A stretch of 20,559 bases of DNA from the NCBI GenBank assembly GCA_027064425.1, contig JAMOPO010000005.1, forward strand, positions 1 through 20,559. The letters run 5' to 3'. The stretch is from Methanobacteriota archaeon (GTDB lineage Archaea; JAADCQ01; Methanopyri; Methanopyrales; Methanopyraceae). Numbering within the stretch: the first letter of the stretch is position 1; each line of letters begins with the position of its first letter. This document shows positions 10,166 through 15,822 of the stretch, piece by piece. The notes beneath the pieces were generated by a model, which worked only from the letters and a program-made list of their open reading frames with translations, had not been told where the DNA came from and made no database searches. The position numbers and the translations under genes were made by a program.

Positions 10166-10394
10166 CTGGGGAGAAAGGGTCGGGCATTACCGGGCGATCC
10201 TCCCGAGCGCGAAGGTTCCGGAGGTTGTGGTGGGCCGAGGGACTCCTCGCTGCGCGCTCCGGACTGCTGCGGTCCTTACGGAAACCGAGCGCGGATGGCC
10301 TGTGAGGTTTAAGCTGAGGCGTCCGGTGGCGTGGACGGGGCGCTCCCGTCGGGCCGGGGAGTAAGCCGCGGGCGCCTCGGGCCCGTCCCGATGT
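10166..10394. other. Upstream part of the fdhA leader, no gene recognised
   Basis: This stretch between polyferredoxin and the SECIS hairpin holds no credible coding frame. The AT-rich block GGTTTAAGC (10306-10314) is a possible fdhA box A, giving a transcript that starts near 10335 and includes the SECIS. A small GGAC/GTCC hairpin lies at 10261-10275. Confidence 0.4.
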
Positions 10395-10433
10395 GGGTCG
10401 GCGGGAACCCCGAACCGAGGGGACCGCCGGCCC
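10395..10433 (+). ncRNA. Archaeal SECIS element in the fdhA 5' leader
   Basis: The RNA folds as a ten-pair lower stem GGGUCGGCGG (10395-10404) with CCGCCGGCCC (10424-10433), all pairs formed with one G-U; an asymmetric internal loop with GAA (10405-10407) on the 5' side and a single A (10423) on the 3' side; a four-pair CCCC/GGGG stem; and a seven-base loop (10412-10418). GAA opposite A below a short GC stem is the archaeal SECIS consensus. It directs selenocysteine insertion at UGA. Most archaeal SECIS lie in the 3' UTR, but M. jannaschii fdhA is known to have it in the 5' UTR, as here. It lies about 500 bases upstream of the UGA at 10930. Confidence 0.9.
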
Positions 10434-10456
10434 GAAGGGCCCCCTGACGCGGGGGC
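10429..10456 (+). repeat. Hairpins that compete with or follow the SECIS
   Basis: GGCCC (10429-10433) can pair with GGGCC (10437-10441) around a GAA loop, using the same bases as the SECIS 3' arm. A second hairpin GCCCCC (10439-10444) / GGGGGC (10451-10456) has a six-base loop. The first is mutually exclusive with the full SECIS lower stem. Confidence 0.45.
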
Positions 10457-10536
10457 TCGGGCCCGGGGCGGCCGCGGCCGAAACCCGGTCCGACGGGAGC
10501 GCCCCCGCCGCGCGGGTCGAAGGGGGTGAGAATGCC

Positions 10537-12588
10537 TTGGCGAGGCTGCGGTTCGTGCCGCAGGTGTGCCCGTTCTGCGGGTGCGGATGCGGGGTCCTGG
10601 TTGGAACGGACGGGGAGCGGATCCGGGTGCTGGAGCCCTGGCGGCGGCACCCGGTCAACGAGGGGCGCCAGTGCATCAAGCTCTGGGAGGCTCCGGAGGC
10701 GTTCCGACGGGACCGGCTGGAGCGGCCGGCGCGGGTGACCGAGTCGGGTGAGCTGCGCGAGCTCTCGTGGAACCGGGCGCTTGAGGAGGTGGCGGAGGCC
10801 CTCGGGTCCTTCGAGCCGGAGGAGGTGTACTTCGTCACCTCGGCCAAGGCCACGAACGAGGACAACTACGTCGGGCAGAAGCTGGCCCGCGCGCTCGGGA
10901 CGAACAACGTGGACCACTGCGCGCGGCTGTGACACGCTCCGACCGTGGTCGCGCTGTCCGAGGTCTTCGGGTCGGGGGCGATGACCAACTCGATCCCGGA
11001 CCTCGCCGAGGCGGACTGTTACCTGGTCGCGGGCTCGAACACGGCGGAGCAGCACCCGATCGTGTACCGCAGGATCGTGGAGGGGGTAGAGGACGGCGCC
11101 GACCTGATCGTGCTGGACCCGCGGCGCACGCTGGTGGCGGAGCTGGCGGATCTGCACCTGCGGGTGCGGCCGCGGTCCGACCTGGTCGTGTTCCTGTACA
11201 TGGCCCGGGTGATCCTGGAGGAGGGGCTGCACGACGAGGAGTTCATCGAGGAGCGGACCACCGGGTTCGAGGCGTTCGCGGAGTACGTCCGCGGGGCGGT
11301 CTCGGAGGAGGACGTTCGGAGGATCGCCGGGGTGGACCCGGAGGACGTCCGGGAGGCGGCCGTGCGGTACGCGGAGGCGGACCGGGGCTGCATCATCTAC
11401 TGCATGGGGCTCACGCAGCACGACATCGCCTGCCGGACGCTGCGGGCCCTCTGCGCGCTCGCCCTGCTGACGGGTAACGTGGGCCGGCCCGGCACCGGCG
11501 TCAACCCGCTCCGCGGGCAGAACAACGTGCAGGGAGCCTGCGACGTGGGCGCGCTGGCCACGCACTTCCCCGGGTACCGGCGGGTCGGTCCGGAGGCGGC
11601 GGAGGAGCTGGCCCGGCTCTGGGGGTTCGAGGTGCCCGAGGAGCCCGGGCTGCGGCTCCCGGAGGCGTTCGACTCGGACGAGATCGCGGCGATGTACATC
11701 TTCGGCGAGAACCCGGCGGTCTCGGAGCCGAACTCGCGCCACGCGGTCAGGAAGCTCCGGAACCTGGAGTTCCTCGTCGTGCAGGACCTGTACCTGACGG
11801 AGACGGCGGAGCTGGCGGACCTGGTCCTGCCCGCCGCCGGCTGGGCGGAGCGCACGGGCACCTTCACGGCGACCGACCGGCGCGTCCAGCTCTCGGAGAA
11901 GGTCGTGGACCCGCCGGGCGAGGCCCGGCCCGACTGGTGGATCCTGGAGGCGGTGGCCCGGCGGCTGGGGCTCAAGGGGTTCGGCCACCGGTCGCCGCGC
12001 GAGGTCTTCGAGGAGATCCGGCGCGTCGTCCCGCAGTATCGAGGGATCACGTACGACCGGCTCCGGAGGCGGCCCGGCGGGATCCACTGGCCGTGCCCGG
12101 AGGAGGACCATCCGGGCACGCCGATCCTGCACACCGAGGAGTTCGCCACCGAGGACGGCAGGGCCCGGTTCCCGAGGCCGGAGGACGTGGAGTACCGGGA
12201 GCCGGAGCGGGGCGTGGATGAGGAGTACCCGCTGATCCTCACCACCGGTCGGGTGTACGCGCACTACCACACGAGGACGATCACGGGGCGTTCCCGGCTC
12301 CTGGACAACGAGGTGCCGGAGTCGTTCGTCGAGATCCACCCGAAGGACGCGGAGCGCTACGGAGTGTCGGACGGTGAGGAGGTGATCATCGAGACGCCGT
12401 ACGGCAGGTGGCGGTGCCGCGCGCGGGTCACCGATCGGGTGCGAGAGGGCGTGATCTTCACCCCGTTCCACTTCGGCGAGAACGCCCTGACGCCGCCGGA
12501 CATCATCGATCCGGAGGCGGGGATCCCGGAGTACAAGCACGTCCCCGCCCGCATCAAACCCTCCTCCCGGGGCGGGTCCGGCTCCTAG
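10537..12588 (+). CDS. fdhA: Formate dehydrogenase alpha subunit, selenoprotein (in-frame UGA = Sec132)
   Basis: One gene of 684 codons read through TGA at 10930-10932. The N-terminus has the [4Fe-4S] ligands C11-x2-C14-x3-C18 (CPFCGCGC) and C46. The context DHCARL-Sec-HAPTV matches the Sec/Cys active site of F420- and NAD-type formate dehydrogenases, where the residue ligates molybdenum or tungsten. The downstream frame continues the molybdopterin oxidoreductase fold without a break: GSGAMTNSIPDL, GSNTAEQHPI, LDPRRT, TGNVGRPGTGVNPLRGQNN, and the C-terminal TGR...HYHTRTITGRS and HFGENALT pterin-binding segments. TTG 10537 follows GGGGGTGA. Function: oxidation of formate to CO2, electrons passing to FdhB and F420. 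A caller that stops at TGA would report two fragments (a C-terminal piece from GTG 10945); the SECIS upstream argues against that. Confidence 0.95.
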
Positions 12589-12591
12589 GGG

Positions 12592-13746
12592 GTGAAACCC
12601 ACCGTGTCGGGGATCGAGGTGAACGGGTGCTACCTGGCCCGGTCGTCGGACCCCGACACCGTGGAGGAGGCCGCGTGCGGCGGGGTCGTGACGGAGCTGC
12701 TGCGGTACGCGCTGCGGGAGGATCTGGTGGACGTGGCCGTCTGCGTGGAGCGGGGTATCGACGCGCTGGACGGGCGGCCCGTCGTCGTGGACGACCCGGC
12801 CGAGGTGCCCTCCGGCTCCTACCACTGCGCCCCGACCCAGCTGGCCCGGCTCGTGGCGGAGCTTCACCGGGAGGACCCCGAGCTGCGGGTCGCGGTCACC
12901 TGCAGGCCCTGCGACGCTCGAGCCCTGGAGCGGCTGGCCGAGCGCGACCTCGTGAGCCTGGATCGGGTGTACCGGATCGGCCTCAACTGCGGCGGCACCT
13001 TCGAGCCGAGGGTCGTGCTGGAGATCCTGGAGGAGCACGACGTGGACCCGCTGGACGTGGAGCGGGAGGAGGTGGCCAAGGGCAACCTGATCATCGAGCT
13101 TCGAGACGGCGAGGAGATCAAGGTCTCGATCGACGATCTGGAGGAGAGGGGGTCCGGACGGCGCGAGAGCTGCCGCCGGTGCGACGAGAACGTCCCGGAG
13201 CGCGCGGACCTGGCGTGCGGTAACTGGGGCGTCCCGGACGAGATGATGGGGAAGTGGACGTTCGTGGAGGTCAAGACCGAGGACGGGCGCGACCTGCTGG
13301 CCGGCGCCGTGGAGGAGGGAGCGGTGGAGGTGCTGGAGGCGCCCGAGAGGTCGGTGCGGATCCGGGAGAAGATCGACGAGATCATGCGGAAGATGGCCCG
13401 CTCCTGGCGGGAGAAGACGCTGGACGAGGATCACCTGGCGGAGGCGCTGGAGGCGCTGAACCGCTGCATCAAGTGCCGGAGCTGCCGGCAGGTGTGCCCG
13501 GTCTGCGAGGCGTGCGAGGAGGAGGGGTGCTGGGCCTTCGCCGGCCGGGAGTCGGTGACGCCCACCCCCGCCTGGCACGCGCACGTCGCCCAGTGCGTCG
13601 CCCTGTACTGCGTCGAGTGCGGGGCCTGCGAGACCGCGTGCCCCGCGGAGATCCCGCTGACCAGGATCTACAGCGTCCTGCGTGAGCGGCTCCCGGACCT
13701 GCTGGACCGCATCATGGAGGGGCGGCGAGCCTCCGCCGGGGAGTGA
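12592..13746 (+). CDS. fdhB: Formate dehydrogenase beta subunit (F420-reducing, FrhB type)
   Basis: The 384-residue protein starts at GTG 12592, three bases after the fdhA stop. The N-terminal two thirds is the FrhB/FdhB flavin- and F420-binding domain: ACGGVVTELLRYAL near 28-41, AVTCRPCDARAL near 101, and RIGLNCGGTFEP near 128, with an ESCRRCDE cysteine pair near 193-200. The C-terminus has two cluster motifs, CIKCRSCRQVCP (C292-C302) and CVECGACETACP (C340-C350). It takes electrons from the molybdopterin subunit through its iron-sulphur clusters and FAD to reduce coenzyme F420. Its close coupling to fdhA and the upstream polyferredoxin marks a formate-use module. Confidence 0.94.
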   Translation: MKPTVSGIEVNGCYLARSSDPDTVEEAACGGVVTELLRYALREDLVDVAVCVERGIDALDGRPVVVDDPAEVPSGSYHCAPTQLARLVAELHREDPELRVAVTCRPCDARALERLAERDLVSLDRVYRIGLNCGGTFEPRVVLEILEEHDVDPLDVEREEVAKGNLIIELRDGEEIKVSIDDLEERGSGRRESCRRCDENVPERADLACGNWGVPDEMMGKWTFVEVKTEDGRDLLAGAVEEGAVEVLEAPERSVRIREKIDEIMRKMARSWREKTLDEDHLAEALEALNRCIKCRSCRQVCPVCEACEEEGCWAFAGRESVTPTPAWHAHVAQCVALYCVECGACETACPAEIPLTRIYSVLRERLPDLLDRIMEGRRASAGE

Positions 13747-13899: not shown

Positions 13900-14619
13900 C
13901 CGCTCGCCCGGGCGCACCCCGGTGCGCTCCTCCACCACCCGCTCGACCAGCTCCTCCCGCCTGAGCCGGGAGTAGAGGCCCTGCCAGCCGCCGTCCTCAC
14001 CCTCCCACCACTCTTCGAACCCGTCCAGCCGCTCCGACAGCCACGCGCAGAGGCACAGGCCCAGCAGCCGCGCCGACCGCTCGTCCCACGCCCGGCGGAA
14101 CCCCTCCGACAGCCGCTCAGCCGCCTCCCCGAGCTCGTCCAGCAGCACGTCGGCCGCGTCCTCCAGCACCGCCAGCGCGACCAGGCCCCGGACCGGGTGC
14201 ACGTCCAGCCGCCGGTACACCTCCCTCAGCGCGGCCGCCGGCCCCTCCCCGTCGACGCCCCAGCACGCCAGCGTCGCCTCCGGCGAGAGCACCGGCAGGC
14301 CGTACAGACCCCGGCCCTCCACCAGCGCGCGCAGCCGTTCCACGAGCGACGACTCGACCCCGCTCAGCCCCAGGACCCCGCGGAGCACCTCCCAGGGCGA
14401 GCCGTCAGCCTCCATCTGCAGCGCCGAGCGGCGGAAGATCGAGGCCACCCGCGCGACCGCCTTCGCCACCGGCCAGACCTCGTCCACCCGCCGGATCAGC
14501 GTCCGCTCCTCGGCCCGGCGGTCGTCCAGCACGTCCCGGGCCGCGTCGATCACCGCCTCGGCCCACTCCTCGTCCACGCCGAAAACCGACACGGCTCCCT
14601 CGACCTCCAGCTCGATCAC
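13897..14619 (-). CDS. Unknown protein coupled to the ParA-like ATPase (candidate partition partner)
   Basis: The 240-residue frame starts at GTG 14619, whose GTGA overlaps the stop of the ParA-like gene, so the pair is almost certainly co-translated. I do not recognise the family. The protein is alpha-helical and rich in Leu, Ala, Glu and Arg, with a Trp-rich acidic stretch (FEEWWEGEDGGW) near the C-terminus and no membrane segment or obvious zinc site. The position directly after a ParA/MinD-type ATPase is where DNA-binding partition partners (ParB-like) or cargo adaptors are found, but no ParB motif is visible, so the role is inferred from context only. Confidence 0.75.
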   Translation of the reverse strand: MIELEVEGAVSVFGVDEEWAEAVIDAARDVLDDRRAEERTLIRRVDEVWPVAKAVARVASIFRRSALQMEADGSPWEVLRGVLGLSGVESSLVERLRALVEGRGLYGLPVLSPEATLACWGVDGEGPAAALREVYRRLDVHPVRGLVALAVLEDAADVLLDELGEAAERLSEGFRRAWDERSARLLGLCLCAWLSERLDGFEEWWEGEDGGWQGLYSRLRREELVERVVEERTGVRPGER

Positions 14620-15518
14620 CCCTCGAGAACCCCCGTGACGTGGTCGCGCCGCTGCCAGTACTGCGCGATCAGGAAGGCCACCTCCCGGAACAGCCGCTCG
14701 TACTCCCGAGGCCGCGACCGCCGCATGCGGAGCGGGATGCCGAGGTCCGTCGCCGACTTGATGACCTGAGCGTCCGGGATGTGCACCCGGTCCACGGCAC
14801 CGACCACCTTGCTCAGCTCGCGCCGGACCCGCTCCAGGTTCGCCTCCCACTCCACCGTGCCGGGCTTGTAGTCCTTGTTCAGCACGAGCACGCGAACGTC
14901 GGGCCCGTGCTCCGACTCCAGGAACCGGGTGATCTGCTCGGGCGAGGACGGGTCCATCACGGGCACGATCGTGTCGCACGCCCGCAGCACCCGCTTGACC
15001 CACCGCTGCTCGGAGTTCATCGGCGGGGTGTCCACGAAGGCGATCGGGGGCCGCGCGCCCCCATCCTCCCCGCGCACCAGGTCGTGCACCCCGGCCACCA
15101 GCCGTCGAACGCGCTTCCGGCTCGCCACCCGCCTGTAGTCGCCGCTGGCGGGCACCGCGAGGAACGCCGCGCCCAGGCCCGCGGCCCGATCGTCGAGCAG
15201 CTCCTCCAGACCGTCCGGCTCGAACTCGAGGCGGTACACCTCGAAGCCCTCGATCTCGCCGACCCGCTCCGGCCTGAAGGGACCGCGACCGGCGAGCAGC
15301 TGCTTCAGGGTGAGCCCGCTCGACTCGCGGTTGCCCTGCGGGTCAAAGTCTATGAAGATCGTCGGGCACGCCGGAACGCCGCCGTAGCCCCGGGGCCGCG
15401 CGAACTCCATCCCGACGTTGAACGCCACGGTGGTCTTGCCCGTGCCACCCTTGTAGGCCGCCACGCCCACGACCAGCGGGGCGCGCGGCTCCAACCCTCC
15501 CGCCCCCGCCTCCGGCAT
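14616..15518 (-). CDS. ParA/MinD-type ATPase
   Basis: The 300-residue protein has the deviant Walker A motif KGGTGKTT (23-30) with the signature first lysine, then the FIDFDPQGN switch region and FVDTPPMNS for the Walker B part, the standard order in ParA partition ATPases. These dimerise on ATP and move DNA or protein cargo. ATG 15518 is chosen because the Walker domain starts soon after it and an AT-rich promoter-like block lies about 25 bases upstream; no ribosome-binding site precedes it, so the message may be leaderless. The frame is open further upstream to 15641 but that part overlaps palindromic non-coding sequence. The partner gene overlaps its stop; three inverted repeats lie upstream. 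Plasmid origin or chromosome partition are both possible. Confidence 0.88.
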   Translation of the reverse strand: MPEAGAGGLEPRAPLVVGVAAYKGGTGKTTVAFNVGMEFARPRGYGGVPACPTIFIDFDPQGNRESSGLTLKQLLAGRGPFRPERVGEIEGFEVYRLEFEPDGLEELLDDRAAGLGAAFLAVPASGDYRRVASRKRVRRLVAGVHDLVRGEDGGARPPIAFVDTPPMNSEQRWVKRVLRACDTIVPVMDPSSPEQITRFLESEHGPDVRVLVLNKDYKPGTVEWEANLERVRRELSKVVGAVDRVHIPDAQVIKSATDLGIPLRMRRSRPREYERLFREVAFLIAQYWQRRDHVTGVLEG

Positions 15519-15540
15519 TGGGAGAACTGGGCGGCCCGTT

Positions 15541-15560
15541 ATCGTTACAGCAAGCACGAT
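15541..15560. promoter_or_regulatory. ATCGT...ACGAT dyad in the ParA promoter
   Basis: ATCGT (15541-15545) and ACGAT (15556-15560) flank a ten-base centre. On the minus strand the site, with GTAACGATAAC next to it, covers 23-42 bases before ATG 15518, that is, the expected promoter. It could be the box A itself or an operator over it. Confidence 0.45.
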
Positions 15561-15594
15561 CCCGGGAACCCGTCGAGGCGGCGTTGACGCGGCC

Positions 15595-15617
15595 ATTGTT
15601 TCGATCATCGAAACAAT
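15595..15617. repeat. Perfect 23-base palindrome, parS-like half-sites
   Basis: Arms ATTGTTTCGAT and ATCGAAACAAT are perfect inverted repeats around one central C. The TGTTTC and GAAACA within them equal the outer half-sites of bacterial parS, though here seven bases lie between instead of four. It is 77-99 bases upstream of the ParA-like gene, where an operator or centromere site would be expected. Confidence 0.6.
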
Positions 15618-15682
15618 TGGGGCGACGCCGCGCCCGCCCACGGTCCGCGCGAGTCGATCGCGCGCCGATCCCGGGCAGGATT

Positions 15683-15708: not shown

Positions 15709-15822
15709 TGGTGGGCCCGCCGGGATTTGAACCCGGGACCACCGGCTCACCGCGGCGGGGCGGGGCTCAATCCCCGCCCCGCCTCGTCAGGCCGGCGTTC
15801 TACCGGGCTGAACTGCGGGCCC
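15709..15822 (-). tRNA. tRNA-Val(GAC) with a 37-base intron and C at position 8
   Basis: On the minus strand: acceptor GGGCCCG pairs with CGGGCCC; D arm GTTC/GAAC; anticodon stem CCGGC/GCCGG around CTGACGA, giving anticodon GAC (valine); variable loop TGGTC; T arm CCGGG-TTCAAAT-CCCGG; discriminator A; CCA encoded. The intron (15748-15784) lies after position 37, the usual archaeal site, and itself folds into a perfect 12-pair GC stem with loop ATTGAG. Position 8, normally U, is C in the gene; Methanopyrus is known to edit C8 to U8 in most tRNAs with the deaminase CDAT8. The tRNA splicing endonuclease would remove the intron. Confidence 0.95.
15748..15784 (-). other. tRNA-Val intron
   Basis: These 37 bases split the anticodon loop between positions 37 and 38. 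GGCGGGGCGGGG pairs fully with CCCCGCCCCGCC, leaving the loop ATTGAG and short single-stranded ends that can form the bulge-helix-bulge cut site. The exact cut points can shift by a base or two from sequence alone. Confidence 0.85.

Follow-up and report, generated by a model that had tools for sequence, protein, structure and literature searches.

A SECIS in the 5'-UTR of fdhA has been described for methanogens, with a distance constraint suggested as the reason for its position (PMC2933860). According to those parts of PMC11881835 that treat the subject, reporter work in M. maripaludis shows that a SECIS in the 5'-UTR directs selenocysteine (Sec) insertion, and the 5' SECIS elements of Methanococcales are flanked by complements of the coding sequence after the UGA. 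That paper (2025) also lists a 5' fdhA SECIS for M. kandleri AV19, without flanking complementary sequences (Table S3, as cited in its text). An earlier note on the DNA analyzed here proposed a SECIS element in the leader of fdhA and called this position, which it knew from M. jannaschii, rare. The position is real but not new, being on record for methanogen fdhA (PMC2933860) and, in the portions of PMC11881835 just cited, for AV19; because of the AV19 entry, the main claim of the note is already published for the genus Methanopyrus. What is new here is the architecture of the leader, its link to a cassette in the fruA and selD 3'-UTRs, and the case made against one old arrangement for fdhA.

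The window, by which we mean the whole 20,559-nt stretch of DNA analyzed, contains a formate dehydrogenase gene pair whose features are collected in Table 1. The fdhA product scores 726 bits against TIGR01591 (cut-off, 666) and contains one in-frame TGA; we propose TTG 10537 as its start codon. The UGA lies in the context CARL-U-HAPT at a Sec/Cys site occupied by Cys in homologues, and the genome is Sec decoding, with a tRNA-Sec over the cut-off. Elsewhere in the window, on the minus strand, a tRNA gene (15712-15822; 46.8 bits to RF00005) that ARAGORN missed carries approximately 40 extra bases at the anticodon side (an intron) and has C at position 8; Methanopyrus edits C to U at this tRNA position. 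Directly adjoining this intron-containing gene is a protein with a LAGLIDADG domain, PF14528 (15877-16911), and a ParA/MinD-like ATPase (14619-15641) has weak Pfam matches, below the cut-off.

Table 1. Features of the fdhA leader and the genes behind it (positions in the window)
Feature	Position	Strand	Basis or remark
TATA-like TTTAAG	10308..10313	+	~26 nt before P1; sequence
P1 closing stem, 5' strand	10337..10358	+	22 bp with 10484-10505
Internal loop, 5' side, GAGUAA	10359..10364	+	Invariant in 4 genomes
P2a stem, 5' strand, GCCGCGG	10365..10371	+	Pairs with 10472-10478; invariant
P2b stem, 5' strand	10376..10384	+	Pairs with 10459-10467; closes three-way junction
GAUGU flank	10390..10394	+	Occupies AUGA place of fruA/selD SECIS; alignment
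SECIS hairpin	10395..10433	+	Fold, window scan, alignments
SECIS basal stem	10395-10404/10424-10433	+	10 bp, GGGUCGGCGG/CCGCCGGCCC
SECIS GAA opposite single A	10405-10407/10423	+	Fold
SECIS apical stem	10408-10411/10419-10422	+	4 G-C pairs
SECIS loop	10412-10418	+	7 nt
GAA after SECIS stem	10434..10436	+	Occupies GA place of AUGA_GA motif; alignment
Companion hairpin GGGCCCCC-UGACGC-GGGGGCUC	10437..10458	+	A[C/U]G[C/U] in loop; R1-R3 models
P2b stem, 3' strand	10459..10467	+	Four-genome alignment
P2a stem, 3' strand, CCGCGGC	10472..10478	+	Invariant
Internal loop, 3' side, CGAAA	10479..10483	+	Invariant in 4 genomes
P1 closing stem, 3' strand	10484..10505	+	Fold, four-genome alignment
Shine-Dalgarno-like GGGGGUGA	10522..10529	+	Sequence; similar G-rich pre-start site in relatives
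fdhA, Sec-containing formate dehydrogenase alpha subunit	10537..12588	+	TIGR01591 over cut-off; PF00384, PF01568, PF04879
In-frame UGA (Sec) codon	10930..10932	+	CARL-stop-HAPT in 4 Methanopyrus genomes; Cys at same site in G004
fdhB, F420-dependent beta subunit	12592..13746	+	PF04432, PF04422; 3 nt after fdhA

The hairpin folds as the earlier note had drawn it, with a ten-pair stem, GAA opposite A, four G-C pairs, and a 7-nt loop, at -29.3 kcal/mol (z = -4.0); 0 of 200 shuffles did as well. It has the attributes of an archaeal SECIS: the GAA/A bulge lies between two stems, the run of consecutive G-C pairs above it (CCCC/GGGG) exceeds the three expected as a minimum, and the clamp below is GG/CC. 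Because stems are cheap in a very GC-rich leader, we weighed a chance hairpin, using a purpose-built scanner for archaeal SECIS folds (a GAA, AAA, or CAA bulge opposite A, with G-C clamps). Over both strands of the 20.5-kb window, the scanner returned 10395-10433 as the single site, while dinucleotide shuffles gave 0.125 sites of the weakest kind accepted (basal stem of at least 5) and none with a basal stem of at least 9 and an apical stem of at least 4. Conservation also counts against chance. We compared the four Methanopyrus genomes with a Sec-fdhA (our own, G001, G002, and G003) and one with a Cys-FdhA (G004). All four of the former have the element, with GAA/A and the apical stem invariant and one basal pair changed on both sides. 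Among 11 fdhA, fruA, and selD elements, GAA/A is again invariant and 8 of the 10 basal-stem pairs show two-sided changes. A chance origin is therefore extremely improbable, and the identification of the hairpin as an archaeal SECIS, placed in the leader of an fdhA with an in-frame UGA, is borne out.

The distance from the SECIS to the UGA is 496 nt. The earlier note had asked whether a rival SECIS lies beyond 13746; the scanner found no second site after fdhA (12588) or fdhB (13746) in the window, and no second SECIS in the approximately 8 to 10 kb around fdhA of three relatives. Neither of the two outcomes that the note had named as refuting it was observed. An Rfam search at a permissive threshold gave no match at the SECIS or the leader. 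In G003 the basal stem contains a U-U mismatch, and the minimum-energy fold of its leader drops this stem. In our genome a reading frame opens at GTG 10393 and continues across the SECIS into fdhA; we rejected it as coding because leader lengths differ between genomes by non-multiples of three and the RNA covaries.

The SECIS is one arm, at the tip, of a structured leader RNA of approximately 170 nt that is common to the four genomes and had escaped the earlier note. Positions 10300-10560 fold at -187.8 kcal/mol (z = -6.5). From the outside inward, the order is a closing stem (P1), an internal loop (GAGUAA/CGAAA), P2a, P2b, and a three-way junction from which the SECIS and a second, companion hairpin emerge. 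The internal loop contains an AGUA/GAA arrangement that matches the loop-E (sarcin-ricin) pattern, and we take it to be loop-E-like. Across the four-way alignment, 97.7% of cells in the named pairs are paired, and when partners were slid by 1 to 3 columns, pairing was 32 to 61%, versus 98% in register. The inner 10 pairs of P1 are 100% paired in the four genomes and 4 of the 10 are changed on both sides, counts that lean toward the chosen boundaries because these were fixed by the analyst before alignment; P2b is paired in 97% of cells. Over the deeper genome pairs, the leader core is 82 to 87% conserved, versus 49 to 65% for the fourfold-degenerate sites of fdhA; between our genome and G003, it is 81% conserved, no better than the fourfold sites (86%). 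G004, which has a Cys-FdhA but has kept tRNA-Sec, has no such leader. Model R1, built from the fdhA leaders only, gave strong full-length matches solely at fdhA. A scan of genome contigs recovered one further copy, which is G003's own record, and a scan of viral contigs gave no leader match.

The surroundings of this RNA suggest a transcribed but untranslated position. The TATA-like TTTAAG, together with stretches richer in AT that the other three Methanopyrus leaders have at comparable spacing from P1, suggests that the fdhA mRNA starts at P1, and the Shine-Dalgarno-like site follows the structure. The composite leader would thus probably begin at the mRNA 5' end and stop before the Shine-Dalgarno site. 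Ribosomes would load at GGGGGUGA (10522), with UUG 10537 as their start codon, and since loading would occur downstream of the leader, the SECIS would not be traversed and could stay folded while the ribosome reaches the UGA. There, about 500 nt downstream, the SECIS would make the ribosome read UGA 10930 as Sec, with SelB and an archaeal SECIS-binding factor presumably bridging the two; we know of no archaeal SECIS-binding factor.

After the fdhA leaders themselves, R1 next matched SECIS elements in the 3'-UTRs of fruA (five genomes) and selD, by way of the companion hairpin. Alignment of the 11 elements gave a common order of G(A)UG(A/U), SECIS, GA, and companion. As an unbiased test, we built model R3 from fruA and selD only, with fdhA excluded, and calculated E values over 183 kb. 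R3 matched the four fdhA leaders at full length with 52 to 57 bits (E of 6e-9 to 4e-8), and it scored 32 to 39 bits on vhuU/vhuD and 19 to 26 on fwuB; at E of 5 or below, neither the Cys-fdhA of G004 nor the fdhA loci of Methanococcales (L081-L101) gave a match. Written as an exact sequence pattern, the companion (GCCCSC-N0-2-ACGYGSGGGC) has five occurrences in five genomes, every one of them at an fdhA or fruA SECIS, and a reversed control pattern gave zero occurrences in the same genomes. The fdhA element thus has the fruA/selD-type cassette (GAUGA-SECIS-GA with an adjoining companion bearing the A[C/U]G[C/U] loop) with one change, GAUGU for GAUGA. The AUGA opposite GA at the stem base that marks an eSECIS is not present in fdhA, which has GAUGU or GGUGU there. 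As far as the relevant parts of PMC11227280 go, the AUGA_GA motif is known in Methanopyrus frhA, with a corresponding motif in selD, and is reported to be absent from fdhA; the GAUGU/GA that is all we find at this place agrees with that account. Gene names of the SECIS loci come from reading C-terminal sequences and not from a family search.

A scaffold general to all SECIS elements was considered and dropped: in Methanopyrus, the vhuD and vhuU elements show an outer stem without a companion, and several Methanococcales fruA elements also lack one. An outer stem with a second hairpin around the SECIS does occur at fwuB in four Methanopyrus genomes and at fruA of G004, and related companions (loops UAUGC and AUGU) follow the SECIS of some Methanococcales selenoprotein genes. 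In Methanococcales, L122/L123 (vhuD type) and L125/L126 (fruA type) place the SECIS in a three-way junction with an outer stem and a second hairpin. The fwuB 3'-UTR SECIS of the four Methanopyrus genomes (L036-L039) sits in a three-way junction of its own: CCCGGGCC and GGCCCGGG pair as its outer stem, and its second hairpin, GCGGGGG-(C/U)AAG(U/C)-CCCCCGC, has no sequence relationship with the fdhA companion. In G001, fwuB is present twice (L039 and L040, at G001:C1:154400-158900 and 551000-555500); the copies are 99.8% identical over 1290 bp, and both have an in-frame UGA. Their identity ends approximately 12 nt short of the first copy's SECIS, and neither the scanner nor model R2 found a SECIS at the second copy. 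The arrangement may reflect a recent duplication or conversion without the signal or else an assembly error.

Taken together, we consider it likely that this is a functional SECIS in the fdhA 5'-UTR and an arm of a composite leader, its module most likely having been copied from a 3'-UTR cassette. Copying of SECIS and companion into the 5' leader would make sense because fdhB directly follows fdhA and the nearest 3'-UTR lies 2.8 kb past the UGA; it most likely happened independently of the Methanococcales 5' SECIS. The likeness of fdhA to fruA and selD could also be due to homogenization within the genome and not to copying.

What the scaffold adds is less certain: it may keep the SECIS in its fold close to 100°C, display it to the factor, or have a regulatory role. 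One alternative is that the outer part (P1, GAGUAA/CGAAA, and P2a) is mainly a regulatory leader, selenium or metal sensing or controlling translation, that carries the SECIS by chance. P1, loop, and P2a occur together only at fdhA, as the restriction of high full-length R1 scores shows, and P1 covaries around an unchanging internal loop, both of which fit such a leader. However, no Rfam family is similar, the scaffold accompanies Sec-fdhA and is absent with Cys-fdhA, and SECIS and companion are integral arms of the structure, so we regard this alternative as unlikely. A second is that scaffold and companion merely keep the SECIS folded and protect the mRNA 5' end near 100°C, with no specific contacts. 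Folding extrapolated to 85°C kept the stems in the three leaders other than that of G003, with the inner part uncertain at 98°C, and fwuB reaches a similar outline with unrelated sequence. In M. maripaludis, moreover, trimming 33 nt of 3' flank to leave a minimal fruA SECIS keeps full activity compared with the longer element (PMC9622424), so Sec insertion may not require a companion hairpin. Against pure stabilization stands the conservation of the companion A[C/U]G[C/U] loop and of the internal loop in sequence, beyond what pairing demands; we give this second account something short of an even chance. More speculatively, the SECIS of Methanopyrus, and in part that of thermophilic Methanococcales, may be composite, with the A[C/U]G[C/U] companion as a second contact for the SECIS-binding factor and the fdhA 5' element as a transplanted 3'-UTR cassette and an independent second invention of the 5' SECIS; we offer this tentatively.

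Counterparts in position exist in Methanococcales. A codon-pattern search for Sec-FdhA in 394 archaeal genomes returned Methanopyrus only, because Methanococcales read HSAT and not HAPT; we gathered the Methanococcales Sec-FdhAs by protein searches in its place. In ten of their fdhA leaders, the SECIS 3' flank is complementary over 11 to 17 nt (13 to 17 nt in most thermophiles) to coding sequence from approximately +27 to +31 past the UGA, and several leaders add a 5'-flank pairing of 7 to 11 nt that begins at approximately +43/+44, so that the complementary coding region spans approximately +27 to +52. This independently reproduces the complementarity described in the pertinent sections of PMC11881835. 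The four Methanopyrus leaders showed no conserved counterpart of such bridging flanks, their best leader-coding matches being specific to each genome. We attribute an invariant 9-mer pairing of P2a with +94 to chance, since the conservation of each partner has another cause. The SECIS-UGA distance is 447 to 502 nt in most Methanocaldococcus-type leaders, compared with 496 here. A second Sec-fdhA of Methanococcus-type genomes (L099-L104; HCARI-U-HAPTV) had no SECIS up- or downstream by our scanners.

The earlier note had read the shared position as an old arrangement specific to fdhA. The ancestral version of this idea, a 5'-UTR SECIS at fdhA before Methanopyrales and Methanococcales split, inherited vertically, with Sec later lost in the Methanobacteriales-type FdhA and G004 and the flanks remodeled, accounts for the same gene, the homologous Sec position, and the similar distance in both orders. 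In trees of FdhA built after masking of the Sec/Cys site, however, the Methanopyrus Sec-FdhA joined the G004 Cys-FdhA and then a Cys-FdhA clade of other archaea (98/95), and the Methanococcales Sec-FdhA was placed elsewhere, so that the Sec-FdhAs of the two orders do not form one clade. An AU test, chosen after the first tree was seen, rejected a single Sec-FdhA clade (p-AU 7e-6) and, more weakly, Methanopyrus plus Methanococcales (0.015 and 0.027 with and without the long G004 branch); given the post hoc choice and the unusual composition of the Methanopyrus protein, these values are moderate evidence. The tree alone does not separate two gains from one gain with losses. The flanks are also unalike: coding-sequence pairing occurs in Methanococcales only, and the closed scaffold with the fruA/selD cassette occurs in Methanopyrus only. 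A cassette shared with fruA and selD, unlike flanks, and split Sec-FdhAs leave an old fdhA-specific arrangement unsupported, and we find common ancestry doubtful. Considering tree and cassette together, we lean toward independent emplacement of the cassette at fdhA.

On that reading, the 5' position at fdhA may have arisen twice, perhaps since fdhB blocks the usual place, which argues that SECIS cassettes can move from a 3'-UTR to a 5'-UTR. The companion hairpin, which accompanies the SECIS in one 5' leader and in two families of Methanopyrus 3'-UTRs and in its exact form occurs nowhere else in the five genomes searched, is a candidate extra recognition site; a full-text literature search (SECIS with three-way junction or Methanopyrus), covering the main text of articles, identified no earlier description of it. 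Since Methanococcales pair and Methanopyrus does not, the two orders also amount to a natural experiment on whether a 5' SECIS depends on pairing to the UGA region.

Compared with known elements, the fdhA leader resembles the 3'-UTR SECIS of Methanopyrus fruA (frhA) and selD, as portrayed in the relevant parts of PMC11227280, in its GAUG(A/U)-SECIS-GA-companion order. Those elements differ in lying after the gene, keeping AUGA or GUGA intact where fdhA has GAUGU, and lacking P1, the internal loop, and P2a. Eukaryotic-type and Asgard SECIS elements have an AUGA_GA kink-turn core, and Methanopyrus fruA and selD likewise have AUGA_GA below the stem; fdhA, in contrast, shows only a degenerate form of this motif, GAUGU/GA, alongside the archaeal GAA/A bulge, which it retains. 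The 5' fdhA SECIS of M. kandleri AV19 is the same element, to which we add the scaffold, the companion, three further genomes, and the Cys-fdhA control. The 5' fdhA SECIS elements of Methanococcales (M. jannaschii and M. maripaludis fdhA1) share the GAA/A bulge, lie approximately 450 to 500 nt before the UGA, and likewise come with no 3' SECIS found, but they carry bridging flanks, whereas Methanopyrus has a self-closed three-way-junction scaffold with a companion hairpin.
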